Assembly: GCF_026651855.1 (NCBI RefSeq)
Contig: NZ_CP093280.1
Span: 2,582,001-2,646,000, forward strand
Length of the DNA: 64,000 bases
Source: Pseudomonas silvicola
GTDB taxonomy: Bacteria; Pseudomonadota; Gammaproteobacteria; Pseudomonadales; Pseudomonadaceae
Direction of reading: 5' to 3'
Part shown: in pieces, positions 33,641-55,663 of the stretch
Numbering within the stretch: position 1 is the stretch's first letter
How the letters are laid out: each line of letters opens with the position of its first letter
Program-made: the position numbers and the translations under genes
Notes under the pieces: generated by a model
Database searches by the model: none
Seen by the model: the letters and a program-made list of their open reading frames with translations, nothing else
Told to the model about the DNA's origin: nothing

Positions 33641-33663
33641 CCAGGCCCGCTGAGTGGGCCTGG
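33641..33663. terminator. Hairpin between convergent genes
   Basis: A perfect 8-bp stem, CCAGGCCC with GGGCCTGG, around a 7-base loop lies between the receptor stop and the stop of the convergent glycosyltransferase. No T run follows on either strand, so it is at best a weak bidirectional terminator. Confidence 0.45.
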
Positions 33664-34917: not shown

Positions 34918-35736
34918 TCAGGCCCCGGGGGGGTCATAGCGCCCCAGGCAGGCGCGCGCCAGCACTGCCAGCACCGCCAGGTTACCGCGCACACTACTGA
35001 TCTTGGTCGGCACTTCGCCCTTGGGATAACGCCGCACGGTAGGCAGTTCAACGCAGTGGTAGCCCAGGCGAGGTGCACGGTATGACAGGTATGCCAGCAG
35101 TTCATAGGTCATGAACACATCGCGAAAGATCGCCACCTGAGGGTCCAGCAGTAGCCGTCGACTGTAGGCGCGGTAGCCCTGGGTGGTGTCACTCCAGCGA
35201 TACCCCGAGGCCCAGCTGAGCAGCGGGGCGTGGATGTAGCGGATGGCGAAGTCGCGCGAGGGCGGTGTGTTTTCCGCCACGCCGCCCTCGATGAACCGCG
35301 ACGCCTGCACGAAATCCACGCCGCGGCGCAGGGCCTGGATGAAATCGGGAATGGCCCGCGGGTCGTCCTTGTCGTTGCCGTCGATAGTCACCACGCCTTC
35401 ATAGCCCTGGTCCAGGGCGAAGGCGTAGGCGCAGCGCAATTGGGCACTGAGCTTGCCCGGCCCGGTCTTGACCAGCAGGGCCCGTACCCGGGTCTTGCTC
35501 AGCAGTGCGCTATTGAGGGAGTCATCCTGGCTGCCGCCATCGACGATGATGATATCGGCCAGGTGGTCCAGGGCCATGATCGCCATGCGCTCAAGCAGAT
35601 GGCGGATGCGCTCGCCTTCGTTGATGACCGGGATGACCACGCACCAGTTGCGCTGGCGCCCCAGCCACAGGGGCAGGTCGTAGGTGGGAACCTGGCGTGC
35701 GGCCAGTTGGCCGGGTAGAAATTGGGCGGATGTCAT
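34918..35736 (-). CDS. Polyprenyl-phosphate sugar synthase-like GT2, complete copy
   Basis: The 272-residue GT2 enzyme resembles dolichol-phosphate mannose synthases: WCVVIPVINEGERIRHLLER, ADIIIVDGGSQDDSL, and VVTIDGNDKDDPRAIPDFI (the D-x-D-like acidic site), with GVDFVQASRF and DTTQGYRAYSRRLL. It has no C-terminal membrane segments. It probably loads a sugar onto undecaprenyl phosphate. The start at 35736 has GAGG eight bases upstream and follows the EamA gene by 10 bases. It is the last gene of the seven-gene operon. Its first 90 codons are repeated at 43625-43894. Confidence 0.85.
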   Translation of the reverse strand: MTSAQFLPGQLAARQVPTYDLPLWLGRQRNWCVVIPVINEGERIRHLLERMAIMALDHLADIIIVDGGSQDDSLNSALLSKTRVRALLVKTGPGKLSAQLRCAYAFALDQGYEGVVTIDGNDKDDPRAIPDFIQALRRGVDFVQASRFIEGGVAENTPPSRDFAIRYIHAPLLSWASGYRWSDTTQGYRAYSRRLLLDPQVAIFRDVFMTYELLAYLSYRAPRLGYHCVELPTVRRYPKGEVPTKISSVRGNLAVLAVLARACLGRYDPPGA

Positions 35737-35746
35737 GGGCAATACC

Positions 35747-36103
35747 TCAGGCAACCCGGGCGGTGATCAACGCCACCCCGGCAATAACCAGAAAGACCCC
35801 GGCGCCGGTGGTCCAGTGAAAGGGTTCACGCAGCAACAGCACTGATGACAGCGCCACCGTGGCCACCGCGCCGGCGGTCAGCACCGGGTGGGCGACATTG
35901 AGAGGTAAGCGTGCCAACGCCGCGGCGTACAGCAGGAAGGCGGCGCCGTACAAGGCCAGGCCAAGCCAGAAAGGCCAGTTCGCCAGGGCCGCCAGGGGGG
36001 CGGCCAGGGAGGGGAAGCGCCGGGGAGGCATCATCGCCATTTTCACCAGCACGCTGGCCGAGGCGTTGGACAGAATGCCCAGGATCAGGATCGCCCATTT
36101 CAT
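35747..36103 (-). CDS. Small EamA/SMR-like membrane protein, first copy
   Basis: The 118 residues form four membrane helices: MKWAILILGILSNASASVLV, then helices near 40-60, 63-85 and 95-117. This is the size and layout of ArnE/ArnF-type half flippases and of EmrE-like proteins. Beside a polyprenyl-phosphate GT2 and a GT-C-like transferase, a role in flipping the lipid-linked sugar to the periplasm is likely. A homodimer would be needed since no second subunit is seen. It overlaps the TIM-barrel gene by four bases. An identical copy lies at 43905-44261. Confidence 0.82.
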   Translation of the reverse strand: MKWAILILGILSNASASVLVKMAMMPPRRFPSLAAPLAALANWPFWLGLALYGAAFLLYAAALARLPLNVAHPVLTAGAVATVALSSVLLLREPFHWTTGAGVFLVIAGVALITARVA

Positions 36104-36936
36104 GCACGTACTCCGCTTTCATGGTGTCGGTAATGGCGGGTCGCGGCGTGCAGGGCACGTTCGATCACCGGGACTGAGGGCTGGTCGGGTTGCTTTACCA
36201 TTTCGATGGTCACCACCTGTTCGGGCAGGTAGCCACGCAGGGCAGTCAGCATGCGGTCATGGTCGGTGCCGCCCTCGCCCAGGGGCACCAGGTGCGGCTC
36301 GCTGGCGTGTACATGGCCGATCAGGTCGGCGTGCTCATGCAGCACCCGGGCCGGGTCTTCGCCGTTGAGGGTCAGGGCGCCGGTGTCCAGTTGCATGCGT
36401 ATCGCGCCATGGGCCACCTGGCGTACCACTTGGGCGGTTTCATTGCTATCGAGCATGAAATTGGCGCCGTAGCAGGCCGGGTTCGGCTCCAGGCAAATCA
36501 CCACCCCGTGGTCGTGGGCGATGTCGCCCAGGCGGCGGAAAAAGTTCAGGGCGATCTCCAGGCTGTGCTGGTCATCCAGGCCGGCCCGGTCACGGTTTTT
36601 CGGCGAGCCGAACACCAGGCGCCGGGCCCCCAGCCCGGCAGCAATGCGGCACACGGCAGCCAGGTGGTCGAGCATGCTTGCCTGGCTGTCGGCACCGGCG
36701 AACAGGTTCAGACCTTGGGTGCCAAACAGCAGCGCCTGCATGCCGTAGATTTCGATGCCCCGCGAGCGCCACCACCGACGTACCTGGCTTATCTGCGCCT
36801 CGGTAGCCTTTGCCGGGTTGGGAAAGTATTTGCCGGGGGCCACGTCGATCGCATCGATCTGCAGTTGTTGCAGCAGCCTGCTCACGGCCATGTCCTCGTC
36901 TCGGTCCCAGGCAATGTTGGAAATGGCCAGCCTCAT
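36100..36936 (-). CDS. Sugar phosphate isomerase/epimerase-like TIM-barrel protein, first copy
   Basis: The 278-residue protein has the xylose-isomerase-like AP-endonuclease-2 fold, with candidate metal ligands in the usual order: Glu150 (CLEPNP), Asp184 (QLDTGAL), His208/His210 (GHVHASEP) and Glu245 (VTIEMV). Members of this family isomerise or epimerise sugars, or act on inositols. The substrate is unknown; operon context suggests it shapes the sugar precursor before lipid loading. It overlaps both neighbours by four bases. The second copy (44258-45094) differs at four residues: M16I, H124R, L126R and N165D. Confidence 0.83.
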   Translation of the reverse strand: MRLAISNIAWDRDEDMAVSRLLQQLQIDAIDVAPGKYFPNPAKATEAQISQVRRWWRSRGIEIYGMQALLFGTQGLNLFAGADSQASMLDHLAAVCRIAAGLGARRLVFGSPKNRDRAGLDDQHSLEIALNFFRRLGDIAHDHGVVICLEPNPACYGANFMLDSNETAQVVRQVAHGAIRMQLDTGALTLNGEDPARVLHEHADLIGHVHASEPHLVPLGEGGTDHDRMLTALRGYLPEQVVTIEMVKQPDQPSVPVIERALHAATRHYRHHESGVRA

Positions 36937-37736
36937 GCGTGTGCCTCCAGAGGCAGGGCAATGCCCTGCGGTTCAGACTGGGCATAGGCGCGTACCGCCA
37001 GCAGGGTATCGCGCGCGCTGTAGGGGTAACGGCCGGGCGCGCCATACAGGTTGGCGAAGCGGCTGTGCAGGTCGTAGCGGGAGGGGCTGGCGCTCAGATG
37101 CTGCTCCATTATCCGGCCGAAACCTTCGCGGGCCAGGCGTGCGACGCTGATGGGTTCAGCACACAGGTGAACCAGCGAGAGGCCGGCCTGCAGCGCGATC
37201 TGGATGTCATGCCAGAGGTTGACCATGGGGTAGAACTGGAACACGCCACGGCTGTCGACAGCGGCCAGGTTGTTGTTGTGCAGCAGGTCGAACACCACGT
37301 TTTTGCGTAGCCCCGGGCCTACCAGGCCAGGCAGGCGCACGATCAGGTGGCACGGGAAGTGTTCGGCGACGAACTTTTCCAGGCGCCTGCGGTGCAGGCC
37401 GTAGGGCTGCAGCCCGGTTTCATCCACGGTGCTGTATTCGTCTACCCCCACGGGGTGGGCAAACACGTCCACCGTACTGATCAGCACGAATACCTTGCAG
37501 CGCACGGTGCGCAGGTGTTCGATCAGCGAATCGATGGCATGCAGGTCGGCTTCCGGCTCGCGGTTGGCGAGCCACTTCTGGGCCGGGGCGCCGGCGCATA
37601 CCAATGTGTCGAACGGCAGGTGATCGATCTCGCCAATGGTGGTGGACCGGTAGTGGGCGGCAAAGGTGGTCTGGCGCAACAGGGTCGAGCCAACGAAACC
37701 GGTGTAGCCGATCAGTGCATCGCGGGTCGTGGTCAT
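36933..37736 (-). CDS. NAD-dependent epimerase/dehydratase-like protein, complete copy
   Basis: The 267 residues start with a Rossmann glycine motif, GYTGFVGSTLL (10-20). VFVLISTVDVFAHP and RLPGLVGPGLRKNV follow, as in extended short-chain dehydrogenases. The catalytic YxxxK is altered: YGLHRRRLEK puts Arg where Lys is expected, so the enzyme may be a non-classical member. It is likely a sugar-nucleotide modifying enzyme. It overlaps the membrane protein gene before it and the TIM-barrel gene after it by four bases each. The second copy in opgC lacks the first 48 codons, including the nucleotide-binding motif. Confidence 0.8.
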   Translation of the reverse strand: MTTTRDALIGYTGFVGSTLLRQTTFAAHYRSTTIGEIDHLPFDTLVCAGAPAQKWLANREPEADLHAIDSLIEHLRTVRCKVFVLISTVDVFAHPVGVDEYSTVDETGLQPYGLHRRRLEKFVAEHFPCHLIVRLPGLVGPGLRKNVVFDLLHNNNLAAVDSRGVFQFYPMVNLWHDIQIALQAGLSLVHLCAEPISVARLAREGFGRIMEQHLSASPSRYDLHSRFANLYGAPGRYPYSARDTLLAVRAYAQSEPQGIALPLEAHA

Positions 37737-39217
37737 AGGGGGCCTCGGCAGTTGAGGTGCAACAATTCGGCGTCCGTCACGCTCAGTTCCGAGGTGTAGG
37801 CGCAGCGGTACTTGTCCAAGGCGGCTTGCATCAGGTTGCCCACGCCGGTTTCTCCCGGTTGCAGGTCCAGGTGTGACGTCAGGAAGTACACCGAATCACT
37901 GGGCCGCTGGGCGAGCAGTTGGTCGATGTCGTTGGCCATGGTGGCCATTTCCTGATTCGGGTCGCGGCGCCGGGTGGTGTCGTCCAGCCGGGTGAAAAAG
38001 CGCTGGCGGGCCAGTCCGGGGTCCAGCAACTGGTAATACTCCAGCGACGGCTGGGCATTGGGGTGCACCAGTATATCGCTGGGCGGCATGGCTGAGAGGT
38101 ACTGGTACAGGGCGTTATTATCGGTGTACTGGAAGTTGTCGCCGTCCAGGTTGTTGTGCACGGCCTTGCCGGCTTGCAGCGCCAACAGCGCCAACAGCAC
38201 CCAGCCCAGCACCTTGAGGCTTTTGCTCATGCCTTGGGTAAACGTGAGAATGGCGAAGGTGTCGATGACCAGGCTCAGGGGCACCATCCAGATCACGTGG
38301 CGGGGGTAGGTGGCGGGGTACACGCCTGCGACCTTGCCTGCCAGTACCAGCAGCACCAACACGCAGAAGAACTGGTTGACCCGGTGAACGAAGGTACGCG
38401 GTGGGTACACCAGCAGCATCAGGCTCGACACCACCGAAACCGCCATCAGCACCTTGCCATAAGCGCCCAGCAGCGCATGCAATACGCTTTCCAGCGCGTC
38501 CAGCGGGCCAGAGCTGGCATAGGTGTTGTAGTTGCTGATCTGGTAGGTGGTCAGGTACTTCATGCACAAGTACGACAGCGCCACGCAAGCGGCGGAGACA
38601 ACGAAGCCGCCGATTTTGTACAGCCGTTGGCTGCCGTCATCACGGCTCACGAACCACCAGCACGCGTACGCCAGCAGGCCGCCAGCGATGATCAGGGTGG
38701 AAAACCCCAGCAGGCTGATCAGCGCCGCCACCAGCAGGGTCCAGTAGATGTCGTCGTGGTCTTCGGCTTCGCGGATGGCCAGAACGGCCATGAAGCTGCC
38801 GCTCATTTCCAGGAAGTAGAACTTGAGTTCGGTGAAGTGGAAACCGGTCGAGAACGAGTTGCCAATCACCGCCACCAGGAACACGAACACGCCCCAGCGA
38901 TAGGGGCGGAACAGCAAGGCAACCGGTATGGCCAACAGCAGCGACACCGCCAGTACCGACAGGCGCAATGGCCGAATGTCGTAATGAAACACGGCCATCA
39001 CGAGCTTGAAGAACACCGATGCCAGTACTGGCTCGGCCTGGTCGTAGTAGGGCAGGGGAGCTGCGAAGTCGGCGGGGTTGCTGATGGCGATGATGTTCTT
39101 GAGCAGCATCGCCTCATCCATCCACACCGAGCGCGTCGACAGTGTGACGAAGATACTGGCCAGTACCAGCAGGGCTACCAGGGTGCAGAGTTTCGACAGT
39201 TCAAAGTGCTTCATCAT
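37733..39217 (-). CDS. Multipass membrane glycosyltransferase-like protein (GT-C type)
   Basis: The 494 residues have about ten membrane helices and a C-terminal soluble domain of about 130 residues. After the first helix comes TRSVWMDEAMLLKNI with Asp34-Glu35, the early acidic pair expected in the first periplasmic loop of GT-C enzymes such as ArnT or the PMT family. This suggests it transfers a lipid-linked sugar in the periplasm. The acceptor is unknown. The start ATGATG has GGAG seven bases upstream and overlaps the FAD gene by 17 bases. Confidence 0.75.
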   Translation of the reverse strand: MMKHFELSKLCTLVALLVLASIFVTLSTRSVWMDEAMLLKNIIAISNPADFAAPLPYYDQAEPVLASVFFKLVMAVFHYDIRPLRLSVLAVSLLLAIPVALLFRPYRWGVFVFLVAVIGNSFSTGFHFTELKFYFLEMSGSFMAVLAIREAEDHDDIYWTLLVAALISLLGFSTLIIAGGLLAYACWWFVSRDDGSQRLYKIGGFVVSAACVALSYLCMKYLTTYQISNYNTYASSGPLDALESVLHALLGAYGKVLMAVSVVSSLMLLVYPPRTFVHRVNQFFCVLVLLVLAGKVAGVYPATYPRHVIWMVPLSLVIDTFAILTFTQGMSKSLKVLGWVLLALLALQAGKAVHNNLDGDNFQYTDNNALYQYLSAMPPSDILVHPNAQPSLEYYQLLDPGLARQRFFTRLDDTTRRRDPNQEMATMANDIDQLLAQRPSDSVYFLTSHLDLQPGETGVGNLMQAALDKYRCAYTSELSVTDAELLHLNCRGPL

Positions 39218-40322
39218 CGAGTTTCTCCAGCACGTCGTAGAGGTTGTCGATTTTGCCGCCCAGTACCGAAAAGCACCCGGGTAGCGTGGCGTGGCGTTCG
39301 AAGAGAATCGGCCGGCCGTCGTCGTCTTCGTTGCGCTGCAGCACGGTTTTCACTTCGTACAACGAGTCCACATGCCGGGCATCGGCCACCGCGGGAATGT
39401 AGCGGGCCACGTCGCGCACCATCCGCTCGACCCGGCTGACCCGCTCGTAGTCGCGCAATTTGCGATAGGGGTCCAGGCCGGGCCTGTCCTGCCAGTTCAA
39501 GTGGGGGGTGAAGCGCACATGGGACAAGGTATGCAGGCCCCGGGCGGGGAATGGCATCAGGGAAAAGAACGGCCCGTCCATCACCGTGATGCCCAGGCCT
39601 GACAAGGCGGGCGGCATGGCCATCAGTGCCATTTCGGTGATTTCCTGCTTGAGGGGGCTGGTCACTCCGGGAAAGTCACCGCCCAGCTGGTTGGTGCCGC
39701 TGTAGCTGCAATTGAACACATAGCGGCTCTCGACGTGGGTCTTTTCGCCACGCTCGTTTTCCAGGTGCACCCGTAGCCCGTCCGGTACCTTGTCGATCGC
39801 CAGGGCGCAGGTTCGGTAGTGCACCTGGACCGCGAAACGGTCCAGTTCGCGCAGGGCCCACTCGGCCAGGCGGGTACTGTCGAAAGCGTATTCCTGCACG
39901 GCGAACACGTCTTCGATCAGCCGGGTCTGAAAAAACTCGCGCACATTCGCCGGCGCCTGCTGCACCGGGGCGCCGATGTCGCGGCAGAAACGCTCGAATT
40001 GGCGGGCGGTCAGCTTGGAGTTGTGCCGCGCGATGGCGTAGAGCTTGGTGAAGTCTTGCCGCACTGCCTGCGGCCAGTCGCGCACGAACCGTGGCAGGTT
40101 CACCCGGCTGCGATAGGCCGTGGTGTAGCTGCGCGGGTAGTGGTAGCCATTGTGCACGCGGGCCTGGTTGTTGTAGGAGGCGCGCAGCATCAGCGCCGGT
40201 TCGCGCTCCACCAGCAGCATGTGCCTGAACCCACGCTGGGCGGCCAGGTAGACGGCAATGGCCGCGCCGTAGAAACCGCCGCCGATGATCACCGCGTCAT
40301 GGCGTGGCGCATGGGCGGCCAT
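39201..40322 (-). CDS. FAD-dependent oxidoreductase (DAO-like)
   Basis: The 373-residue protein opens with a dinucleotide-binding motif, AVIIGGGFYGAAIAVYLA, and an acidic strand end, LLVEREPALMLRAS. NNQARVHNGYHYPRS follows. The later VFNCSYSGTNQLGG and the C-terminal FSVLGGKIDNLYDVLEKL are consistent with the DAO/glycine oxidase fold with FAD contacts at both ends. It sits between glycosyltransferase genes and probably oxidises a sugar or amino-sugar intermediate, but that is inference. It overlaps the upstream GT2 stop by one base (TGATG). Confidence 0.82.
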   Translation of the reverse strand: MAAHAPRHDAVIIGGGFYGAAIAVYLAAQRGFRHMLLVEREPALMLRASYNNQARVHNGYHYPRSYTTAYRSRVNLPRFVRDWPQAVRQDFTKLYAIARHNSKLTARQFERFCRDIGAPVQQAPANVREFFQTRLIEDVFAVQEYAFDSTRLAEWALRELDRFAVQVHYRTCALAIDKVPDGLRVHLENERGEKTHVESRYVFNCSYSGTNQLGGDFPGVTSPLKQEITEMALMAMPPALSGLGITVMDGPFFSLMPFPARGLHTLSHVRFTPHLNWQDRPGLDPYRKLRDYERVSRVERMVRDVARYIPAVADARHVDSLYEVKTVLQRNEDDDGRPILFERHATLPGCFSVLGGKIDNLYDVLEKLDDEAL

Positions 40323-41347
40323 CAGGAGAACCGTCCAGTGACCACGACCGCCGAGTCGATGGCGGGCGCGGCTGCTTCTTCGATGTTCAGCCGTTCGCGC
40401 CGGGTCATGCGCGCGCTGGTGAACTCCTGGGCCACGTGATAACCAGGGCCTTGCTGGGTGGCGCTGGCCATGTTCATGAGGTATTCGCCCAGCACCATCA
40501 GTACTAGCGAGATCAGGAAAAACATCCCCGATTGTTGCAGCGACAGGCTGATCCAGCCGGGTGCCACATCAGCCTTGAAGAAGCCGATGGCCACCACGTA
40601 GACGCAGTACACCAGGTTCATGACCGCACCGAACAGCGACAGGGCCGTGACCAGGCGCATGGGCCCGCGAGTGGTGGACAGCAGCAGGCCGACCCCGCGG
40701 TCGATGTTGTCGCGCAGACGCTTGCGCGGCTGGGGCCGGGGTGGTTCGCTGTAGCGCAAGTTGGCGCGAGCGAAGCCGCCGGTCGCCGGCAAGTGGCGGT
40801 AGCCGATCACCGGCTTGGGATGCTGCAGGATGAAGTTGATCACTTCCCGCGACATCAACCGGTAGGGCGGTGCTTCCTTCGCCAGGTTGATGCCGTTGAA
40901 ACGGTGATAGCACCAGTGGAACACCCGGAACGCCAGGCGGTAGAGCGGCCCCTGGCGCGGCCGTTGTTCGTTGCACACGAACACCACGTCCGCCCCTTGG
41001 CGTGCTTGCTCCAGCAGGTTGGGCAGGTAGCGAATGTCATCGGTCATGGGGTCGATCACGGCCACATGGTCACCCAGGGCGTTTTCAAGCCCAACCCACG
41101 ATGCGGTGTCGATGTCCACTTCCTTGGTCAAGGCGTAGACCTGCAAGTTGGCAATGCCTGTCTCGCTGCTCAGGTGCTTGAGCACGGCGATGCTGTTGTC
41201 CGCGGAGGCGTTGTCGACCACGATCAGTTCGTAGTCGCGCACCATGGCACTGACCACCTCGGTGGCGTCCAGCAGCAGGGCTTCAAGAAAGTCGGCATGG
41301 TTGCGAACGACAAACACCACCGACAGGAAACTCGGGACGTGGGCCAT
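40322..41347 (-). CDS. GT2 glycosyltransferase with two C-terminal membrane helices (GtrB/DPM-like)
   Basis: The first gene of the sugar operon. The 341 residues show a GT-A domain (FLSVVFVVRNHADFLEALLL, YELIVVDNASADNS, DHVAVIDPMTDDIRYL) and, from about residue 230, two membrane helices (LVTALSLFGAVMNLVYCVYVVAIGFF and GMFFLISLVLMVLGEYLMNM). This is the layout of GtrB-type polyprenyl-phosphate glycosyltransferases. Having both this and a second DPM-like enzyme in one operon suggests either two sugars or successive steps. Confidence 0.85.
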   Translation of the reverse strand: MAHVPSFLSVVFVVRNHADFLEALLLDATEVVSAMVRDYELIVVDNASADNSIAVLKHLSSETGIANLQVYALTKEVDIDTASWVGLENALGDHVAVIDPMTDDIRYLPNLLEQARQGADVVFVCNEQRPRQGPLYRLAFRVFHWCYHRFNGINLAKEAPPYRLMSREVINFILQHPKPVIGYRHLPATGGFARANLRYSEPPRPQPRKRLRDNIDRGVGLLLSTTRGPMRLVTALSLFGAVMNLVYCVYVVAIGFFKADVAPGWISLSLQQSGMFFLISLVLMVLGEYLMNMASATQQGPGYHVAQEFTSARMTRRERLNIEEAAAPAIDSAVVVTGRFS

Positions 41348-41899
41348 GGGGGCGGTTCTCTATTCGACGGGGGCGAGGTACCGGGCAGGCGCAAGGCGGC
41401 CGTACGGCATTGGCAATCACGTTGAGGGTGGGCAGTGCGAAGGGGCATGCGGAACAGCGGGTAGGCTACCGCCAGGCAACGCAACGGTTGCCGCGGGCCT
41501 TTCAAGGCTGGGCGTCAGGTTTCTGTATATGTGTCCTGACTTTAAACGTCCTGTTACAAGCGAGGCTAGCGCAGCGCCACGATCTTGGCTACCGCTGGAT
41601 AATTAAAAGCGCCGAATGGCCCACGGCTATCGGGTTGGAGATTGAATGTTCTGTCAGCCAATGGTCGGCTGCGCGACGGCCGGATCCATCGGGTACCCGT
41701 TGCGGGTCGGGGGGGTGGGCCTCTCGGGCTCAGCGCGCTCCATTGCCGGCCTCCACAAAAAAATCTTTGGAAATCATTCCGATGGCTGTAGCCTTCCTCG
41801 GCCTGGCGGTCTGTACCACCAGGGAAACAACACCCAGGCTCGCGTAAGCCGGGTGGTATACTCGACTTTCGCGCACAAGCGCCTGCAGGTCTTGCCAAC
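41348..41899. promoter_or_regulatory. Divergent intergenic region between sugar operon and nadA
   Basis: No gene is supported in these 552 bases. For nadA, TATACT at 41857-41862 with an upstream TGG makes a good extended -10 about 38 bases before the start; the -35 match is poor. The sugar operon on the other strand must be transcribed from the left part, where an AT-rich patch lies around 41520-41620. No tRNA fragment or attachment-site repeat matching the tRNA-Lys end was found. Confidence 0.5.
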
Positions 41900-42958
41900 A
41901 TGACGCAGATTTCCGAACGCCTTCTGGTCCAGGCCCACCTCGACGCCAAGCAGCCCAAACCGCTGACCGTCGAGCAGGAAGCCGACTACCGCGCTGCCAT
42001 TGCCGCCGAGCTCAAGGCTCAGGATGCCGTGCTGGTGGCGCATTTCTATTGCGACCCGGTGATCCAGGCCCTGGCCGAGGAAACCGGTGGCTGCGTGTCC
42101 GACTCCCTGGAAATGGCCCGCTTCGGCAAGAACCACCCGGCCAGGACCGTGGTGGTGGCCGGTGTGCGGTTCATGGGCGAGACGGCCAAGATCCTCACCC
42201 CCGAAAAGCGCATTCTGATGCCGACCCTGGAGGCCACCTGCTCGCTGGACCTGGGCTGCCCGGTGGAAGAGTTCTCGGCGTTCTGCGACCAGCACCCCGA
42301 ACGCACGGTGGTGGTTTATGCCAACACCTCGGCGGCAGTGAAGGCGCGGGCCGACTGGGTGGTGACGTCCAGTTGCGCACTGGAAATCGTCGAAAGCCTG
42401 ATGGACAACGGCGAGACCATCATCTGGGGGCCGGACAAGCACCTGGGCCGCTACATTCAGAAGCAGACCGGCGCCGACATGCTGCTGTGGGACGGTGCCT
42501 GCATCGTCCACGAAGAGTTCAAGTGGCGCCAGTTGGCAGACATGAAGGCGTTGTACCCGGACGCTGCGATTCTGGTGCACCCCGAGTCGCCGGAGTCGGT
42601 CATCGAATTGGCTGATGCCGTGGGTTCCACCAGCCAGTTGATCGCCGCCGCTCAGCGCCTGCCGAACAAAACCTTCATCGTGGCCACCGACCGCGGCATC
42701 TTTTACAAGATGCAGCAGTTGTGCCCGGACAAGATCTTCGTCGAGGCCCCCACCGCCGGCAACGGCGCGGCATGCCGCAGTTGCGCGCATTGCCCGTGGA
42801 TGGCCATGAACACCCTGGAGCGCACCCTCACGGCCTTGCGCGAAGGCCGCAACGAGATCTTCGTCGACCCGGCGCTGATCCCCAATGCCGTGCGCCCCCT
42901 CAAGCGCATGCTTGACTTCACCCACGCCGCGCGCATGAAGGCGGCAGGCAACGCCTGA
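41900..42958 (+). CDS. nadA: NadA, quinolinate synthase
   Basis: NadA condenses iminoaspartate with dihydroxyacetone phosphate to quinolinate for NAD synthesis, using a 4Fe-4S cluster. The 352 residues show [50 protein letters not shown] and the C-terminal [17 protein letters not shown], giving the conserved cysteines. Length and motifs are complete. It marks the return to conserved chromosome after the accessory stretch that begins at tRNA-Lys. Only three bases separate its stop from the stop of the opgC fragment on the other strand. Confidence 0.97.
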
Positions 42959-42961
42959 GGC

Positions 42962-43894
42962 CTAAGCGTTGCTGACCACGCCCGTTGCCGTTGCCGTTGG
43001 CGATGGGCTGGTCAAGCGCTTGTTCCACTCCAGCCACTGGGCCAGGCCAAGCATCAGGCCCAGGCCGGCCAAGGCTGTGGCGATCTGCATGGGCAGGCGG
43101 TCATCGCCCAGGGCGTTGGCCATGTCGGCCAAGGGCGCCAACACCACGCTCAAACAGAAAATTTCCAGCGAATAGCGGCCCATCATCGCCACTTTCTGCA
43201 CCAGCCAGTGCTGCACCCACGGCCCGGTAGGGATCAGCTTGGCCACGCAATACGCCAATGCCAGGAAGTGCACCAGGCGCACCGGCGCCAGGTTGGTCTT
43301 GCTGATGGGGTACAGCTGTTCGCTGACCCACTGGGGCATGAAAGCGTCATGCAGCGCCGGCCACTTCCAGCTCAGGGCAATGGGCACGCTGAGCGCTGCG
43401 ATGCTGGCGCAGGCCATGAACAGTGGCTGGCGATGCAGCGGGCGCGGGTCCGCGGCGTGGGGTTGCTGGCTGTGCAGGGCCGCCGCGCCCCCGAGCACGA
43501 ACAGTGCTTGCCACGCATAAGGGTTGAAGTACCACAGGCCATTGCCATGGGCGGGAATGTTCCAGCCAAACCACTGGGTCAGGCCGTAGACCGCCAGCGA
43601 CAGCCCCACGGCATGGCCGGTGTGCTTGACCAGCAGGGCCCGTACCCGGGTCTTGCTCAGCAGTGCGCTATTGAGGGAGTCATCCTGGCTGCCGCCATCG
43701 ACGATGATGATATCGGCCAGGTGGTCCAGGGCCATGATCGCCATGCGCTCAAGCAGATGGCGGATGCGCTCGCCTTCGTTGATGACCGGGATGACCACGC
43801 ACCAGTTGCGCTGGCGCCCCAGCCACAGGGGCAGGTCGTAGGTGGGAACCTGGCGTGCGGCCAGTTGGCCGGGTAGAAATTGGGCGGATGTCAT
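42962..43894 (-). CDS. Chimeric ORF: GT2 N-terminus fused in frame to OpgC C-terminus
   Basis: The first 90 codons repeat the start of the GT2 enzyme at 34918-35736, including its own ribosome-binding site. After the shared codons LLVK the frame continues without break into the C-terminal 220 residues of an OpgC-family membrane acyltransferase (HTGHAVGLSLAVYGLTQWFG onward, about six membrane helices). The result is an open 310-codon frame. It lacks the GT2 acidic catalytic site and the OpgC N-terminal helices, so neither activity is expected. It is the downstream half of an opgC gene disrupted by duplicated DNA; it might still be expressed. Confidence 0.8.
   Translation of the reverse strand: MTSAQFLPGQLAARQVPTYDLPLWLGRQRNWCVVIPVINEGERIRHLLERMAIMALDHLADIIIVDGGSQDDSLNSALLSKTRVRALLVKHTGHAVGLSLAVYGLTQWFGWNIPAHGNGLWYFNPYAWQALFVLGGAAALHSQQPHAADPRPLHRQPLFMACASIAALSVPIALSWKWPALHDAFMPQWVSEQLYPISKTNLAPVRLVHFLALAYCVAKLIPTGPWVQHWLVQKVAMMGRYSLEIFCLSVVLAPLADMANALGDDRLPMQIATALAGLGLMLGLAQWLEWNKRLTSPSPTATATGVVSNA
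43489..43638. repeat. 150-bp direct repeat of opgC, left copy
   Basis: Matches 45754-45903 at a constant offset of 2265 and encodes the opgC segment from about FVLG back to LLVK. It lies immediately left of the inserted block and shares its last 14 bases with it. Just outside the repeat, a C run is five bases long here and four in the right copy. Confidence 0.93.
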
Positions 43895-43904
43895 GGGCAA
43901 TACC

Positions 43905-44261
43905 TCAGGCAACCCGGGCGGTGATCAACGCCACCCCGGCAATAACCAGAAAGACCCCGGCGCCGGTGGTCCAGTGAAAGGGTTCACGCAGCAACAGCAC
44001 TGATGACAGCGCCACCGTGGCCACCGCGCCGGCGGTCAGCACCGGGTGGGCGACATTGAGAGGTAAGCGTGCCAACGCCGCGGCGTACAGCAGGAAGGCG
44101 GCGCCGTACAAGGCCAGGCCAAGCCAGAAAGGCCAGTTCGCCAGGGCCGCCAGGGGGGCGGCCAGGGAGGGGAAGCGCCGGGGAGGCATCATCGCCATTT
44201 TCACCAGCACGCTGGCCGAGGCGTTGGACAGAATGCCCAGGATCAGGATCGCCCATTTCAT
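43905..44261 (-). CDS. Small EamA/SMR-like membrane protein, second copy
   Basis: This is an intact 118-codon copy, identical at protein level and, as far as I could compare, at DNA level to 35747-36103. Four membrane helices as described there. It lies inside the duplicated block and keeps its overlaps with the TIM-barrel copy and the short gap to the chimeric frame. With the GT-C and FAD genes missing from this block, its expression would depend on read-through from the opgC promoter or an internal promoter. Confidence 0.82.
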   Translation of the reverse strand: MKWAILILGILSNASASVLVKMAMMPPRRFPSLAAPLAALANWPFWLGLALYGAAFLLYAAALARLPLNVAHPVLTAGAVATVALSSVLLLREPFHWTTGAGVFLVIAGVALITARVA

Positions 44262-45094
44262 GCACGTACTCCGCTTTCATGGTGTCGGTAATGGCGGGTC
44301 GCGGCGTGCAGGGCACGTTCGATCACCGGGACTGAGGGCTGGTCGGGTTGCTTTACCATTTCGATGGTCACCACCTGTTCGGGCAGGTAGCCACGCAGGG
44401 CAGTCAGCATGCGGTCATGGTCGGTGCCGCCCTCGCCCAGGGGCACCAGGTGCGGCTCGCTGGCGTGTACATGGCCGATCAGGTCGGCGTGCTCATGCAG
44501 CACCCGGGCCGGGTCTTCGCCGTTGAGGGTCAGGGCGCCGGTGTCCAATTGCATGCGGATCGCGCCATGGGCCACCTGGCGTACCACTTGGGCGGTTTCA
44601 TCGCTATCGAGCATGAAATTGGCGCCGTAGCAGGCCGGGTTCGGCTCCAGGCAAATCACTACCCCGTGGTCGTGGGCGATGTCGCCCAGGCGGCGGAAAA
44701 AGTTCAGGGCGATCTCCCGGCTGCGCTGGTCATCCAGGCCGGCCCGGTCACGGTTTTTCGGCGAGCCGAACACCAGGCGCCGGGCCCCCAGCCCGGCAGC
44801 AATGCGGCACACGGCAGCCAGGTGGTCGAGCATGCTTGCCTGGCTGTCGGCACCGGCGAACAGGTTCAGACCTTGGGTGCCAAACAGCAGCGCCTGCATG
44901 CCGTAGATTTCGATGCCCCGCGAGCGCCACCACCGACGTACCTGGCTTATCTGCGCCTCGGTAGCCTTTGCCGGGTTGGGAAAGTATTTGCCGGGGGCCA
45001 CGTCGATCGCATCGATCTGCAGTTGTTGCAGCAGCCTGCTCACGGCTATGTCCTCGTCTCGGTCCCAGGCAATGTTGGAAATGGCCAGCCTCAT
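44258..45094 (-). CDS. TIM-barrel sugar isomerase-like protein, second copy
   Basis: An intact 278-codon copy of 36100-36936. All candidate metal ligands (Glu150, Asp184, His208, His210, Glu245) are kept. It carries all seven base differences I found between the two duplicated blocks, four of which change residues: M16I, H124R, L126R and N165D. Two of these introduce Arg within three positions on the same helix. The protein is probably functional; whether it has diverged in role is unknown. Confidence 0.83.
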   Translation of the reverse strand: MRLAISNIAWDRDEDIAVSRLLQQLQIDAIDVAPGKYFPNPAKATEAQISQVRRWWRSRGIEIYGMQALLFGTQGLNLFAGADSQASMLDHLAAVCRIAAGLGARRLVFGSPKNRDRAGLDDQRSREIALNFFRRLGDIAHDHGVVICLEPNPACYGANFMLDSDETAQVVRQVAHGAIRMQLDTGALTLNGEDPARVLHEHADLIGHVHASEPHLVPLGEGGTDHDRMLTALRGYLPEQVVTIEMVKQPDQPSVPVIERALHAATRHYRHHESGVRA

Positions 45095-45751
45095 GCGTGT
45101 GCCTCCAGAGGCAGGGCAATGCCCTGCGGTTCAGACTGGGCATAGGCGCGTACCGCCAGCAGGGTATCGCGCGCGCTGTAGGGGTAACGGCCGGGCGCGC
45201 CATACAGGTTGGCGAAGCGGCTGTGCAGGTCGTAGCGGGAGGGGCTGGCGCTCAGATGCTGCTCCATTATCCGGCCGAAACCTTCGCGGGCCAGGCGTGC
45301 GACGCTGATGGGTTCAGCACACAGGTGAACCAGCGAGAGGCCGGCCTGCAGCGCGATCTGGATGTCATGCCAGAGGTTGACCATGGGGTAGAACTGGAAC
45401 ACGCCACGGCTGTCGACAGCGGCCAGGTTGTTGTTGTGCAGCAGGTCGAACACCACGTTTTTGCGTAGCCCCGGGCCTACCAGGCCAGGCAGGCGCACGA
45501 TCAGGTGGCACGGGAAGTGTTCGGCGACGAACTTTTCCAGGCGCCTGCGGTGCAGGCCGTAGGGCTGCAGCCCGGTTTCATCCACGGTGCTGTATTCGTC
45601 TACCCCCACGGGGTGGGCAAACACGTCCACCGTACTGATCAGCACGAATACCTTGCAGCGCACGGTGCGCAGGTGTTCGATCAGCGAATCGATGGCATGC
45701 AGGTCGGCTTCCGGCTCGCGGTTGGCGAGCCACTTCTGGGCCGGGGCGCCG
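45091..45751 (-). pseudogene. Epimerase copy truncated at its N-terminus
   Basis: This repeats codons 49-267 of the epimerase at 36933-37736. The first 48 codons, including the Rossmann glycine motif, are absent because the duplicated block ends there. The frame remains open upstream into opgC sequence in another phase, to an ATG at 45834, giving a 37-residue unrelated leader. Without the nucleotide-binding start the product should be inactive. Confidence 0.8.
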
Positions 45752-46372
45752 CGCCCCGAGCACGAACAGTGCTTGCCACGCATAAGGGTTGAAGTACCAC
45801 AGGCCATTGCCATGGGCGGGAATGTTCCAGCCAAACCACTGGGTCAGGCCGTAGACCGCCAGCGACAGCCCCACGGCATGGCCGGTGTGCTTGACCAGCA
45901 GGGGCAATACCAGCGGCAGGCCCGCCAGCAGCACGATGTACAGCGGCAAGGGGTCCATGAGGTTGGGCTTGAAGCGCAGCAGCAGTTCATCCACCAGGGC
46001 CTGTTGCGGGTCGAGGAGGAAATAGTTGAGGTTCATTTCCTGGATCATGTCGCGGGTTTCGACATGGCTGTTGGCAACGAAGATGATACCCATCAGCAGC
46101 ACCAGCAGGAAAATATGCACCACGTACAGCACCCACGCTCGGCGCAGAATCCGCACCCCGGCGATGAGGTAGCCACTGCGCTCGGCAATCCGGCCATACG
46201 CCAGCACGGCTGCGTAGCCCGCCAGGAACACGAAGATCTCCGCCGCGTCGCTGAAGCCGAAATTGCGCAGGGTGAAGTTGGCGAGGGGATTTTGCGGTAT
46301 GTGATCCCAGAAAATGAAGATCAACGCCAAGCCTCGATAGAAGTCGATGCGGTGGTCGCGGCGGGTGATCAT
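45578..46372 (-). pseudogene. OpgC-family membrane acyltransferase, N-terminal fragment
   Basis: The start encodes MITRRDHRIDFYRGLALIFI, a clear OpgC opening, followed by NFGFSDAAEIFVFLAGYAAVLAYG and further membrane helices. OpgC-family proteins modify periplasmic glucans or related polymers with acyl groups. True opgC sequence runs down to 45754; after that the frame enters the duplicated epimerase out of phase and stops at 45578. Deleting 43639-45903 (2265 bases) joins this fragment to the C-terminal part at 42962 and restores a 381-codon gene. AAGG lies nine bases before the start. Confidence 0.85.
45754..45903. repeat. 150-bp direct repeat of opgC, right copy
   Basis: Right-hand copy of 43489-43638, lying directly after the inserted block. 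Together the two copies act like an unusually long target-site duplication. Recombination between them would remove exactly 2265 bases and repair opgC. Confidence 0.93.
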
Positions 46373-46699
46373 GACGATTGGCCTTGAGCGAAAGGTGGTT
46401 GAATAAGGATAGGTGCGCGGCAGGGCTGGTTCCGCCAGAACGCAGGCTGCCGATCAGCGGCGGGGAGGTTGGCGCTTTTTGGAGGGGAATGCAAAAGAGG
46501 GTTATTACCGGATGTCACAGCGCCCCTGATGACCCGCATCCCCCCTGAGGGACCGGAACGGGGCGCCGCGCACTACCTTTATACCGGAGGTGCCTGCTTC
46601 CCGAGCTTGCGCCCGGTCCCACAGGGGCGCGCCGCCTTGGCCTGACGCGCCCTGGTTGTCACCGCTCCCCCTTTTGGGACCGGGCGTGAAGACAGATGG
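46373..46699. other. Intergenic region with inverted REP-like elements
   Basis: No gene is seen in these 327 bases. TTCCCGAGCTTGCGCCCGGTCCCACAGG-like sequence (46598-46625) recurs at 50791 and 58958. GGGACCGGGC (46676-46685) is the inverse of its GCCCGGTCCC core, so the two halves form a pair resembling a BIME. Promoters for opgC (leftward) would be at the left end. Confidence 0.6.
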
Positions 46700-47869
46700 C
46701 TAAGGTGCGGTTCCAAACCCTGCATTGCGCGCATGCCGGTATTCGCTCACCGCCTCGTACACCGCTTTGCGCAACCGGTTGATACCGCCAATCGGCCGGT
46801 GGGCTTCGATACCGTGCCAGGGGTTGAACGACAGGTTGTCGCACATCAGGTTCTGCGCCGGTGTGTCGAAGTCCTGCGGCCCAACGCGAATAGCGGCGAC
46901 TGTCTGGAACGGCGCGTCGCTTTCCTTCCACTGCACGCTGGTGTCCTCGATGGGCATGTATTTGCTCGGGTCCTGGCGCTGCACCTGCAGCATGAAGCAC
47001 GCCGGTTGCTGGTCGGTGGTCAATTGCTGGTGCAGGGCGGTACGCAGGAAGTTGGGCAGGTCCTCGTTCTGCTTGGCCACTGTGTACGCCGGGCAACTGG
47101 CCGGGTCGGGCACCACGCGGAACTTGACGTTGGCGCTGCCGAACTTGTACGGCGACACCGAGTAATAGGTGGCTAGCGTCGGGCTTAGCGGGGCGTTGGC
47201 CAAGGTGGCCTTGGCGATCAGCAGGTGGCGCAATTGCCAGCTGCGTGGGTCCAGGCTGGGGAAGAAGGCCAGCGCCTGCTTGCCATCCGCCTGGGCGCCG
47301 ATGTTCTGCCGGTATTCAGCCACGTCGCTGACAAAGAAGTTCGGGTGGTTGAACATCACGAAATCCTGCTCGTGACGCTCGGCCTGGTCAGCCATCAACT
47401 GCTTGCCTGGCACGTCCAGCAACTTGATCGCCATGCCGCGTGCGTCCTGCAACTGGTCGAACTGAGGGTAGGCATTGCCGTTGGACAGACGAATCCATGC
47501 CTGCCACGTCTTGCCCGGTTCGGCGAACACGCCCTGACGCAGGTCGGGTGCCAGGTTCTGCGGCACGCTGACCTGGGCCGTGACGCAGCCGTGGGCCTTG
47601 GCGTGGGCATCGCGCAGGTAACGGGTGGGTTCACGGTGCTGATCGACGATGCGGATGGCCGTCTGGATGATGTCCTGGGTCATGGCCGCTTCCCCGGGTG
47701 GAACCTGTTCTTCAGCGGCCACCGGCCCGGAAAATTTCCAGGCGTAGTAGCCATAGCCAGCGGCGAAAGCCAGCGCGGCGATGGCCAGCAGCCATAGGGC
47801 CAGCTTGAGCAAGGCGCGGGCAAGGCGGCAAAAGAATCCCGGACGGCGGGTTGTGTCAGTGAACATCAT
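46700..47869 (-). CDS. Membrane-anchored catalase-family protein
   Basis: The 389 residues begin with a membrane anchor (about residues 21-42: LKLALWLLAIAALAFAAGYG). A catalase-like haem fold follows, with AHAKAHGCVTAQV around the distal His, FVMFNHPNFFVSDV with the conserved Asn, and a C-terminal FNPWHGIEAHRPIGGINRLRKAVY. The fold is shortened compared with true catalases, as in SrpA-type or allene-oxide-synthase-like members, so the activity may be peroxidase-like. It overlaps the dihaem cytochrome gene upstream by four bases, suggesting a joint periplasmic peroxide or lipid-peroxide function. Confidence 0.82.
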   Translation of the reverse strand: MMFTDTTRRPGFFCRLARALLKLALWLLAIAALAFAAGYGYYAWKFSGPVAAEEQVPPGEAAMTQDIIQTAIRIVDQHREPTRYLRDAHAKAHGCVTAQVSVPQNLAPDLRQGVFAEPGKTWQAWIRLSNGNAYPQFDQLQDARGMAIKLLDVPGKQLMADQAERHEQDFVMFNHPNFFVSDVAEYRQNIGAQADGKQALAFFPSLDPRSWQLRHLLIAKATLANAPLSPTLATYYSVSPYKFGSANVKFRVVPDPASCPAYTVAKQNEDLPNFLRTALHQQLTTDQQPACFMLQVQRQDPSKYMPIEDTSVQWKESDAPFQTVAAIRVGPQDFDTPAQNLMCDNLSFNPWHGIEAHRPIGGINRLRKAVYEAVSEYRHARNAGFGTAP

Positions 47870-49680
47870 GGCAATTTCTCCTCGAGCGGGCCGCCCAGCA
47901 CTTTCAGGTATTCGATCAGGGCGCGGCGCTCTTCGGGCGCCAGGTAGCGGCCGATCACGCCGCGGCCACGGGGGCCGTCGCGGAATTCATGGCCGCTGTT
48001 GTGGTTGCCGGTGATAGCGGTGTCGTACAGGAACGCGCCGTCGAAGCGTTCGGTGCGGTAACCCAGGTTCCGCGGGTCGTATTCCAGGCTGCCCCGGTAG
48101 AACGTGCGGGGGCGTTCGTCCTGGGGCGAGAGCAGCAGGTAGACGCTGGGTACCGAACCGTTGTGCAGGAACGGCGGGGTGGCCCATACGCCATCCAGTG
48201 GCCGTGCCTTGTAGGCTTTCACTTCCAGCACGCCGATGCCCAGGCCGAAGCCGTCGTAGCGCGCCCGCTCCGCGCCCTCGATACCGGCCGCGCGGTAGGC
48301 GTGGTCTTCGACGAACGCGGTGACATAGGCCAGGCCCTGGGCCACGGATACCTGGGTGAGGTCCAGCGTGCCCGGGTCGGGATGCACGGTCACGCCCAAC
48401 TTGCCCAATTCGTCGGGGTTCCACTTCAGGCTGCTGACGTCATAGCGGTAGGTGGCGATGTTCTCGGCCACGGCAGGGTCGGTGCCGATTTCGTCGACCG
48501 GCTTGAGCACCATGGTGCGCACCGGCCGGCCCCCTTCCTGCTTCACCGGGGGCACGTGGCACATGGCGCAGTTGGCATCGAACAGCGCTCGGCCAGCGGC
48601 CGCCTTGGCCAGGTCGACCTTGCCCAGAATGTCTTCCGGCCAGGCTGGGGGCTTGAGGTGCTGCAGGGTTTCCTCGATACGGTACAGGTCATGTATCCGC
48701 ACGCTGGAGGGGTAGCGAGCGTCACCGGTCAGCGGCTGGCCATGGTCGTCGAAGAACTGCAGCGTGGTGCCCACCCCCAGCGACTCGCCCACGTTGCGGG
48801 CCATGGGCTGCTGGGCCGAACCGGTCCATTGCACCCAGTCGAACGTCCAGATGTCCCACAACTGCGGGTAGTCCACCGGGGCGTTGGCCACCCGGTAGTT
48901 GGCAGGCGAGATAGCGTCACCGAACGTGGCGTTGGCGATACGCCCGAAGGCGTCGGTACGGCCCGGGCCTTCCTGGGTCGGGTACAGGCCGCGATGCCAG
49001 TCATTCCAGGCCGTGTGGGCGAAGGTGTCCAGCGAAGCCTTGAATTGCTTGCGCAGGGTGTCCTTGTCACGGTCGTAGTGGTCGCCTAGTACCCGGTGAG
49101 CAAAGCGGCTCCACTTCCAGGGCAGGTAATAGGTGGCCGCCAGGCTCGACACCAGCGCCTGGCCGAAGCTGCCACCGCGCAGCGTGGGCACGCTGGAGGG
49201 CAGCACGTGCTGGGCCGTGCCGCCGTCAATGCGCACCGCCTGGCCATTGAAGCGCAACTCGCCGGTGTGGCAGGCGGCGCAGGTGATGTCCAGGTACTCG
49301 GCGGGGTCGCCGTCGTTGCGGTGGCGCGCGAAGCCTACCGGCAGGTTGCCAGGGTTGGCGGCGCTGGCCTGCTGGTTGGGCTCGGTCAGGAAGCCGAAGC
49401 GGGCCATGTACTGCGGCGCGGCGAAACGGTCTTCGGAGAAGGGCAGTTCCAGCTGGGTGAACCAGTCGTAATGCAGGCCCTTGACCTGGGTACCCTGGGG
49501 CGTGAAGTAGTAGAGCTCGCGGTCGGCGGCGCTCCATTGGTCGAGGTAGCGCAGGTTCTGCACGGGCTCGTAACGCGGCAGGTTGGGCCGGGCGGTGTAA
49601 TAGAGCACCACCGCCAGGGCGATGATGACGAGAGCGAGCAGCACCAGCAGGCTGCGACGGATCAGGCGCACGGTAAACAT
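47866..49680 (-). CDS. Dihaem c-type cytochrome, peroxidase/RoxA-like
   Basis: The 604 residues have an N-terminal membrane anchor or signal (about 8-28) and two haem-attachment motifs, CAACH at 134-138 and CAMCH at 371-375. This is the number and wide spacing seen in large dihaem peroxidase-like proteins such as RoxA. A late ATPPFLHNGSVPSVYLLLSP stretch is typical of that group. It is far longer than classical cytochrome c peroxidases. It is first in a two-gene unit with the catalase-like gene and is divergent from a LysR regulator across 170 bases. Substrate unknown. Confidence 0.83.
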   Translation of the reverse strand: MFTVRLIRRSLLVLLALVIIALAVVLYYTARPNLPRYEPVQNLRYLDQWSAADRELYYFTPQGTQVKGLHYDWFTQLELPFSEDRFAAPQYMARFGFLTEPNQQASAANPGNLPVGFARHRNDGDPAEYLDITCAACHTGELRFNGQAVRIDGGTAQHVLPSSVPTLRGGSFGQALVSSLAATYYLPWKWSRFAHRVLGDHYDRDKDTLRKQFKASLDTFAHTAWNDWHRGLYPTQEGPGRTDAFGRIANATFGDAISPANYRVANAPVDYPQLWDIWTFDWVQWTGSAQQPMARNVGESLGVGTTLQFFDDHGQPLTGDARYPSSVRIHDLYRIEETLQHLKPPAWPEDILGKVDLAKAAAGRALFDANCAMCHVPPVKQEGGRPVRTMVLKPVDEIGTDPAVAENIATYRYDVSSLKWNPDELGKLGVTVHPDPGTLDLTQVSVAQGLAYVTAFVEDHAYRAAGIEGAERARYDGFGLGIGVLEVKAYKARPLDGVWATPPFLHNGSVPSVYLLLSPQDERPRTFYRGSLEYDPRNLGYRTERFDGAFLYDTAITGNHNSGHEFRDGPRGRGVIGRYLAPEERRALIEYLKVLGGPLEEKLP

Positions 49681-49850
49681 CCATGTAGGGGAAAGATCGC
49701 CTGTTATGCCTGATTATATATACAGTGGCAAGTGGCTATTTCCCTACTTTTTGTAGTTTTTTCGACAAATGTTGAGAGAACATTCCTACTCGGCCGAACC
49801 GCCTGCACGGCTCGCTGGCAAGGCGGCGCTCACCTACGTAACATCAGGAC
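49681..49850. promoter_or_regulatory. Divergent promoter region, dihaem cytochrome / LysR
   Basis: This 170-base region is shared by the two divergent starts, the usual place for LysR binding. An AT-rich core (49707-49775, with TTATATATACAG) is likely to hold the promoters. No single LysR T-N11-A box stands out. Confidence 0.5.
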
Positions 49851-50774
49851 ATGAATCTCGACACCCGTATAAAATTTCGCCACCTGCTGTGCTTTCTCGA
49901 AATTGCCCGCCAAGGCAGTTTCGCCAAGGCCGCCGACGCGGTTGCCATCAGCCAGCCCGCCATCTCCAAGACCCTCAAGGAACTTGAGGATTTGTTGCAG
50001 ACTCGCCTCTTCGACCGCGACAAGAGCGGCGTGGAACTCACCCCCGCCGGCGTGCGCTTCATGCGCTATGCCGCGCCCTGCGTGCAGGCCCTGCGCGATG
50101 GTGTCAGCACCCTGCGCAGCGAGGAACATGAGCCGCCCCAGGTTCGGGTCGGCGTACTGTCCACCGTTGAAAGCCTGCTGATGCCCGAGGTGCTGTGCCG
50201 CCTCAACGAACGCCACGCGGCCCTGGTGGTCAGCGTGGCCACCGGCCCGGGCGCACACTTGCTGGCGCAATTGCACGTCGGCGAGCTGGACCTGGTGATC
50301 GGGCGCATGACCGACAGCCCGCAGATCCAGGGCCTGATGTTCGAACACCTGTACAGCGAAGCCATGACCCTGGTGGTGCGCCCCGGCCACCCACTGCTGG
50401 GCCAGGCCCCCATTGACCGCGCCAGCGTCAACCGGTATCCGCTGGTGCTGCCACTGGCTGGCACCACCATTCGCAAGCATGCCGACAGCCTGTTCGTGCA
50501 ATGCGCCATCGAGCCCGCCGCCCAGCGGCTGGAAACCCTGTCACCGACCCTGAGCCGCCGCTACGTGCTCAGCAGCGACGCTATCTGGGTGGCGCCTCGT
50601 GACGCTGTATTGCTGGACATCCGCCAGCAGGAGCTGTTCGAACTGGACTTGGGGGTACGCGAACCGGGCGGGTCGGTGGGTATCTGCAGCAATGCGTCAT
50701 TGGCGCTGCCGTTGCCAGCGCAATGGTTGTGCGATGTGGTACGGGAGGTGGCGGCCAGTTATCGTGAAGGCTGA
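49851..50774 (+). CDS. LysR-family regulator (PcaQ/GbpR-like)
   Basis: The 307 residues start with a winged helix-turn-helix (about 8-66: IKFRHLLCFLEIARQGSFAKAADAVAISQPAISKTLKELEDLL) and continue into a periplasmic-binding-like effector domain (about 95-300). The opening DTRIKFRHL and the KTLKELEDLL recognition helix resemble the PcaQ/GbpR branch. It is divergent from the dihaem cytochrome and catalase-like genes and probably controls them; its effector is unknown. Confidence 0.88.
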   Translation: MNLDTRIKFRHLLCFLEIARQGSFAKAADAVAISQPAISKTLKELEDLLQTRLFDRDKSGVELTPAGVRFMRYAAPCVQALRDGVSTLRSEEHEPPQVRVGVLSTVESLLMPEVLCRLNERHAALVVSVATGPGAHLLAQLHVGELDLVIGRMTDSPQIQGLMFEHLYSEAMTLVVRPGHPLLGQAPIDRASVNRYPLVLPLAGTTIRKHADSLFVQCAIEPAAQRLETLSPTLSRRYVLSSDAIWVAPRDAVLLDIRQQELFELDLGVREPGGSVGICSNASLALPLPAQWLCDVVREVAASYREG

Positions 50775-50790
50775 ATTCGGTGTTTTCATG

Positions 50791-50817
50791 TTCCCGAGCT
50801 CCGCCCGGTCCTACAGG
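50791..50817. repeat. REP-like element
   Basis: TTCCCGAGCTCCGCCCGGTCCTACAGG is a variant of the element at 46598 and 58958, located 16 bases after the LysR gene stop. Such repeats are common between genes in pseudomonads. Confidence 0.6.
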
Positions 50818-51039
50818 CAATCTGGACACGCTGTAGGGCATCGCGAAGCCTGGGGACAGGACAACACCGATTCAACTGTAAGGTTTCGGTAAGGTTCGCC
50901 CTCATTTCGATGAAACCCTTTAAACCCCTGAACTTATCGTCATTTCCTGGCTCTCATGCCGGTAGCCATTGGTCGTGGCCGCCTGATAAGCTCGCGGCTT
51001 TACTCGATTGCCCATTTGGCGCATGAACAAGGAAATAGC

Positions 51040-51813: not shown

Positions 51814-51828
51814 TTCGTCGCCTTGTGC

Positions 51829-51861
51829 AAAAAACGCCCCGCCTCGCGTGGCGTTTTTTTT
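51829..51861 (+). terminator. Rho-independent terminator after the FKBP gene
   Basis: AAAAAACGCC pairs with GGCGTTTTTT around an 11-base loop, ending in eight T. It lies 15 bases after the stop. Confidence 0.88.
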
Positions 51862-52054
51862 GCGCGGGCAGGTCTTGAGACCGGGCGTGAAACTGTCAGG
51901 GTGCAAGCGGGTCTCAATAACAGCCCTGTACAGGGGCCCGCAAACGTTCACGCCGCACTGGCCTGGGCGATGTCAAAGTGTGTAAAAAACGCCCGATCCA
52001 ACCCGGACCCTTGCATAGCGTGGCTTTCAGCCATTAAAACGACCGCTGTTCACA

Positions 52055-52083
52055 AGGTTATCCACAAAAACTGTGGATAACCT
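52055..52083. promoter_or_regulatory. Palindrome of two perfect DnaA boxes
   Basis: AGGTTATCCACA-aaaac-TGTGGATAACCT is a 12-bp perfect inverted repeat. Each arm contains the consensus DnaA box TTATCCACA. It sits 28 bases before the DUF1232 gene start. It could bind DnaA as an operator or titration site, or form a hairpin in RNA. Confidence 0.65.
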
Positions 52084-52111
52084 GGCCAGCCAGTTTCCCT
52101 GCGGAGGGCTA

Positions 52112-52579: not shown

Positions 52580-52683
52580 GCAAGTTGAAATAGGAAATCC
52601 CGTTCCGGGCCGCCTACTGTTACTATATTCGGCATAAGGATTATGCCTACAGATTACATATGGTGATCCTACAGGGGGTTGTA

Positions 52684-55595: not shown

Positions 55596-55663
55596 GGAGA
55601 TCGCAACCTCAGGTGGACTCGGGCCGACCCTGGGAACGGCGGAGGGCGATGGAACAAAGTCAT

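Follow-up and report, generated by a model that had tools for sequence, protein, structure and literature searches.

A partly deleted tandem duplication as the probable origin of a split opgC gene in Pseudomonas silvicola

How does a gene come to be divided by a copy of part of a neighbouring operon when the copy bears none of the marks of a transposon? The question is raised by a locus of Pseudomonas silvicola (assembly GCF_026651855.1, contig NZ_CP093280.1, positions 2,582,001 to 2,646,000), a stretch of 64,000 nucleotides to which we refer throughout as the window. The gene concerned, opgC, serves in the decoration of periplasmic sugars, and the sequence found inside it comes from a sugar operon about 8 kb away. 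A first-pass annotation of the window had described the copy as an insertion into opgC and had tentatively attributed it to replication template switching or to a broken circular molecule.

Results

Comparison of the window with itself by blastn showed that a 2,127-bp segment of the sugar operon, here called c, recurs inside opgC in the same orientation, with 2,120 of 2,127 positions identical (99.67%), seven mismatches and no gaps (Table 1). Two pieces of opgC, R1 and R2, flank the copy; they are identical at all 150 positions and are spaced 2,265 bp apart. The recurrence and the flanking direct repeat had been reported in the first-pass annotation and were reproduced here, as was its figure of 2,265 bases, which is the R1-R2 distance, while the differences between the copies, all seven of them in 500 bp, were absent from it. 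R1 and the copy share 14 bp at the left joint. On the right, the copy and R2 are separated by two bases (45752-45753), and by comparison with opgC the C run there is one C shorter. The remaining matches in the self-comparison are low-complexity repeats (823-1191); an imperfect direct repeat array, spaced mostly at 21 or 24 bp, was seen at 863-1215. A search for a further copy of the segment in the 8.65-Mb genome, which is assembled in three contigs, found nothing longer than a 28-bp match.

Based on open reading frames and Pfam, segment c contains the start of a glycosyltransferase gene, a small EamA/SMR-like transporter gene, a TIM-barrel isomerase-like gene and most of an epimerase-like gene. 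At the 14-bp joint an in-frame ORF is created, and its predicted product would fuse the beginning of the glycosyltransferase to the final part of OpgC. The OpgC_C profile (PF10129) matches two pieces only in this genome, at profile positions 1-204 and 156-358, and in the window opgC no continuous frame spans the profile. That the genome might hold another opgC was considered and rejected, as the profile search returned just these two pieces.

Table 1. Features of the opgC locus and of the operon segment copied into it (window coordinates).
Feature	Coordinates	Strand	Basis
Source segment c	35467..37593	-	Window self-blastn, ORFs, Pfam
M: remaining sugar operon, nadA and opgC end, single-copy	37594..43488		Collinear with L077 and L078
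nadA (NadA, PF02445), within M	41900-42958		Pfam
Chimeric ORF, 316 aa: glycosyltransferase start in frame with OpgC C-terminal part (profile 156-358)	42962..43912	-	ORFs, Pfam
R1, 150-bp opgC piece, end of first unit	43489..43638	-	150/150 identical to R2
Joint 1, 14 bp common to operon and opgC; putative tandem-duplication joint	43625..43638
Second copy of segment c	43625..45751	-	2120/2127 identical to source
Complete copy of 118-aa EamA/SMR/TMEM234-like transporter gene	43905..44261	-	ORFs, Pfam
Complete copy of 278-aa AP_endonuc_2 (xylose-isomerase-like TIM barrel) gene; holds all seven mismatches	44258..45094	-	ORFs, Pfam
500-bp tract with all seven mismatches	44548..45047 (copy) = 36390-36889 (source)
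Truncated epimerase-like copy, start fused to opgC bases	45091..45834	-	ORFs; 0 Pfam matches
OpgC N-terminal part (profile 1-204), reads on into copy	45578..46372	-	ORFs, profile match, Pfam
Joint 2, about 5 bp shared and one C fewer; putative deletion joint	45747..45753
R2, 150-bp opgC piece, original setting beside gene start	45754..45903	-	Identity to R1

The segment was searched in 398 genomes of the genus, its own included, of which 193 matched at 1e-60. The closest matches came from genomes G307 (87-92% identity) and G407 (79-87%), and 20 kb around the corresponding locus was compared for these two (L077 and L078, respectively) and for a third genome, G106 (L079). Both L077 and L078 are collinear with the window in the order operon, nadA, opgC; in the 20 kb of each, the operon segment and each part of opgC have one match apiece, the two joint sites lie about 8.09 kb apart, and opgC is a single unbroken ORF of 379 aa. 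The OpgC profile match of G307 is full length with no stops (G407 was not among the genomes in the profile listing). In its 20 kb, L079 has nadA and opgC and, of the operon segment, just an isomerase-like gene with 75% identity. Because two relatives have one operon copy and an unbroken opgC in the same gene order, the arrangement in the window is the derived state and that of the relatives the original order. The alignment of the relatives' nadA-opgC region thus bears out the earlier proposal that opgC was whole before it gained the copy. The copy is 99.67% identical to the operon of its own genome and 87% to that of the nearest relative and is therefore of local derivation; acquisition from a sampled relative was rejected on the same figures.

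The order of the sequence blocks offers the simplest layout for the locus, one that the first-pass annotation missed. With T standing for the start of opgC, the relatives have c-M-R-T and the window has c-M-R-c-R-T. The first unit, c-M-R, is complete and contiguous (35467-43638) and collinear with the two relatives. The second unit consists of c followed by R2, with its internal block absent and both of its ends kept in order, and the new joint between the end of one unit and the start of the next lies on the 14-bp direct repeat. The coordinates agree with this layout, as 43625 - 35467 = 8158 = 2265 + 5893. We put at about 0.7 the probability that the opgC locus arose in two steps, as a tandem duplication of an 8,158-bp unit that was then partly deleted.

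Under the two-step reading, the locus would have started as c (part of the operon), M (the rest of the operon, nadA and the end of opgC), R (150 bp of opgC) and T. Duplication at the 14-bp direct repeat would have joined opgC to the operon, giving c-M-R-c-M-R-T. Loss of the second M (5,893 bp by the coordinates, the two bases of joint 2 aside), at a joint where about 5 bp are shared, would then have left c-M-R-c-R-T, and it is at this deletion step that opgC would have lost its continuous frame. The two joints would accordingly be the records of a duplication and of a subsequent deletion. The 150-bp flanking repeat is, on this account, the end of the duplicated unit, which the deletion spared, so that neither an insertion, nor a circle, nor a target duplication is needed; the same orientation of the copies and their 8-kb nearness are both required by a tandem duplication. 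Of the mechanism put forward earlier, the joint homology stands and template switching may have formed one or both joints, whereas there is no longer any call for a broken circle, or for an insertion that duplicates a long flanking stretch. Against the two-step model, the full-duplication intermediate was not seen in the one genome of the species that was examined, and the clustering of the mismatches is not something that the model predicts.

The joints differ in how much homology they hold. The 14-bp sequence of joint 1 has four occurrences in the genome, at 35467, 43625 and 45890 of the window and at one site elsewhere, and those at 35467 and 45890 form a pair that no exact match between 30000-43488 and 45754-50000 exceeds in length and only one other equals. 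When 3,000,000 joints were drawn at random, with one side in 30000-43488 and the other in 45754-64000, 14 bp was never attained, and at least 10 bp was reached at a frequency of 3.1e-5. The homology at joint 1 is thus far beyond chance. Other exact matches nearby were left unused, namely the equally long one between the two parts, two of 14 bp within the left part (30000-43488) and one of 15 bp and one of 14 bp within the right part (45754-50000). At opgC in both relatives the 14-bp sequence is near but imperfect, and the exact ancestral repeat is for this reason reconstructed from the window alone. Joint 2 shows about 5 bp of shared sequence with a one-base slip and no clean microhomology; at least 5 bp is expected by chance in 0.8% of cases, and the homology, weakened by the slip, is suggestive only.

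A single replication event with two direct template switches would yield the same sequence as the two-step reading. Replication would have passed from opgC to the operon 8 kb off at a short homology, copied 2.1 kb and returned about 150 bp behind its point of departure, the sole difference being that the full duplication never existed. Short homology at both joints is in keeping with such an event, and a matching structure in E. coli was read by its authors as two direct template switches (PMC3161906). The same paper gives a fork dimension of 1.5 kb for E. coli (PMC3161906), however, and a span of 8 kb would call for a second fork or a sister molecule; moreover, one long joint of 14 bp together with one short and imperfect joint fits two separate events easily. 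We favour two steps over one event with two switches on simplicity alone, and regard the latter as the less likely course, although one with a real share of the probability.

The quality of the assembly bears on whether the arrangement exists at all. The genome consists of contigs C1 (7,613,303 bp, holding the window), C2 (952,764 bp) and C3 (84,880 bp). The start of C2 has 51.4% GC, and its ten best listed plasmid matches are all from Pantoea, with 77-81% identity over 13-36% of the query. Stop-free stretches of at least 200 codons cover 25% of the first 20 kb of C2, which is thus frame-broken; the corresponding figures are 91-96% for four stretches of C1 and 84-90% for three named loci from enterobacteria whose GC is similar. 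In the first 20 kb of C3 (54.1% GC) the coverage is 49%; C3 matches Pseudomonas plasmids in small pieces, and 20 of the 22 matching plasmid records are from Pseudomonas. The start of C2 is likely a poorly covered contaminant and may account for the contamination estimate of 8.04% for the genome. Since a frame-broken, foreign-looking contig is present, the assembly is of uneven quality.

An assembly or mixed-culture artefact, with the cell itself carrying one unbroken opgC, would find some encouragement in that contamination estimate, in the enterobacterial-looking and frame-broken C2 and in the shortage of long frames in C3. The mismatches, too, lie mid-repeat, where short reads would not be uniquely placeable, and could be a residue of polishing. 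Contig C1, however, is clean: three coding blocks chosen for comparison with G307 (6,422, 4,071 and 1,059 window bases, 11,552 in all) are free of indels, and in each of the longer alignments between C1 and the relatives, where intergenic sequence and the joints are covered too, 0 to 10 positions are gaps. Two independent joints would have to be artefactual, and a random chimera would not be expected to hit a 14-bp shared sequence. Taken together, these points make an artefact quite improbable.

All seven mismatches fall between 36390 and 36889 of the source, leaving 923 bp and 704 bp of identical repeat on the two sides, and six of the seven lie within 177 bp, a concentration with a simulated chance of 1.15e-4. 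When polarized against L077, L078 and L079, the change appears to be in the copy at five sites and in the source at one, with one site ambiguous. Four of the seven change a residue and three are silent. A decayed isomerase-like gene in the copy was considered as proof of age and rejected, since the four changed residues are at positions that vary among 24 homologues. The cluster could be a mutation cluster, a conversion from an unsampled allele or a mid-repeat polishing residue. Because both mutation and polishing fit, we neither date the copy by the mismatches nor take them to prove that there are two distinct copies, and as evidence of the age of the copy or of the correctness of the sequence they are weak.

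Signs of a mobile element were sought at the locus. No inverted repeats of at least 40 bp were found in the window, and closer inspection of 43400-45960 brought up 28 short imperfect inverted pairs; among the 25 of these that were listed (12-24 nt, 71-92% complementary), none had one arm at each end of the copy. Sixteen proteins between 31140 and 50774 were scanned with Pfam in sets of ten and six, two of the ten being without a match, and no transposase, recombinase, phage or plasmid families were found among them. Additionally, no short target duplication accompanies the copy, as the flanking repeat is 150 bp long. A chimeric circle of 2.1 kb of operon and 150 bp of opgC, integrated by homologous recombination within the 150 bp, would give R-c-R, but it demands both illegitimate joints, the circle and its integration, that is, more steps for the same result, and phage, plasmid and recombinase families were not found among the 16 scanned proteins; we consider it very unlikely indeed. 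Transposition or insertion of an IS element is rejected, with terminal inverted repeats, a transposase and a short target duplication all missing in these scans, in agreement with what had been claimed earlier for this locus.

The state of opgC in the genus was surveyed with the same profile, which matched 150 of 298 genomes. In 140 of the 150 there was a single match without stops that was close to full length, running from profile position 1 to at least 342 of 358. Six have a broken or partial gene (G000, which is the genome of the window, G134, G204, G212 and G306, with G252 at full length and carrying one in-frame stop), so that five of the 298 genomes beside G000 hold a split, partial or stop-bearing opgC. 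In four (G008, G132, G167 and G257) there are weak matches alone (E 2.8e-5 to 3.6e-4). These classes were counted by hand on the profile-search listing, and the five other defective genes may be real losses or sequencing errors.

Discussion

The opgC arrangement appears to be an ordinary, known kind of rearrangement in an unusually clear natural example. The E. coli lac isolate PJH2058 (PMC3161906) shares with it a direct duplication, a deletion between the repeats, short joint homology and the lack of a transposon. It differs in that its amplification was selected under starvation in the Lac assay (PMC3161906), whereas in the window the state is chromosomal, the genus is a different one, no selection is known and opgC is broken. 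Among spontaneous duplications in Salmonella, padlock probes supported five of the eight tested, with joints of 11, 13, 14, 16 and 27 bp (PMC3411829), and the 14-bp joint of the window falls within the same 11-27 bp. Those duplications were rare molecules in chemostat cultures and lacked a second deletion (PMC3411829). Such a deletion has a counterpart in the remodelling of E. coli amplicons, where co-amplified genes were removed by deletion inside the amplified unit (PMC8763031). The E. coli amplicons differ in their length of 109-110 kb, in the assistance of IS5 and in being selected for a single gene (PMC8763031).

The consequences of losing opgC may be modest. In Dickeya dadantii, virulence was unaffected by opgC loss (PMC4726272), and by analogy a mild cost of the loss is plausible in this genome.

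The direct repeats that remain would allow further recombination. Exchange between the two R pieces would remove the segment between them, and exchange between the two copies of c would duplicate or delete an 8.2-kb unit. A self-kept switch could be imagined on this basis, in which recombination through the arms and the copies maintains a mixture of opgC-off, opgC-on and 8.2-kb-amplified cells, balanced because loss through the copies removes nadA; we think it improbable that the locus works in this way.

In summary, a partly deleted tandem duplication would make this locus a natural record of how duplication at a 14-bp repeat, together with loss of the greater part of one unit, can leave a dispersed-looking gene copy, an in-frame chimeric ORF and a broken gene without the participation of a mobile element. 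It would also show that, where an insertion with a long flanking repeat is suspected, a remodelled tandem duplication needs to be tested first, ahead of any proposal for a new mechanism of insertion.
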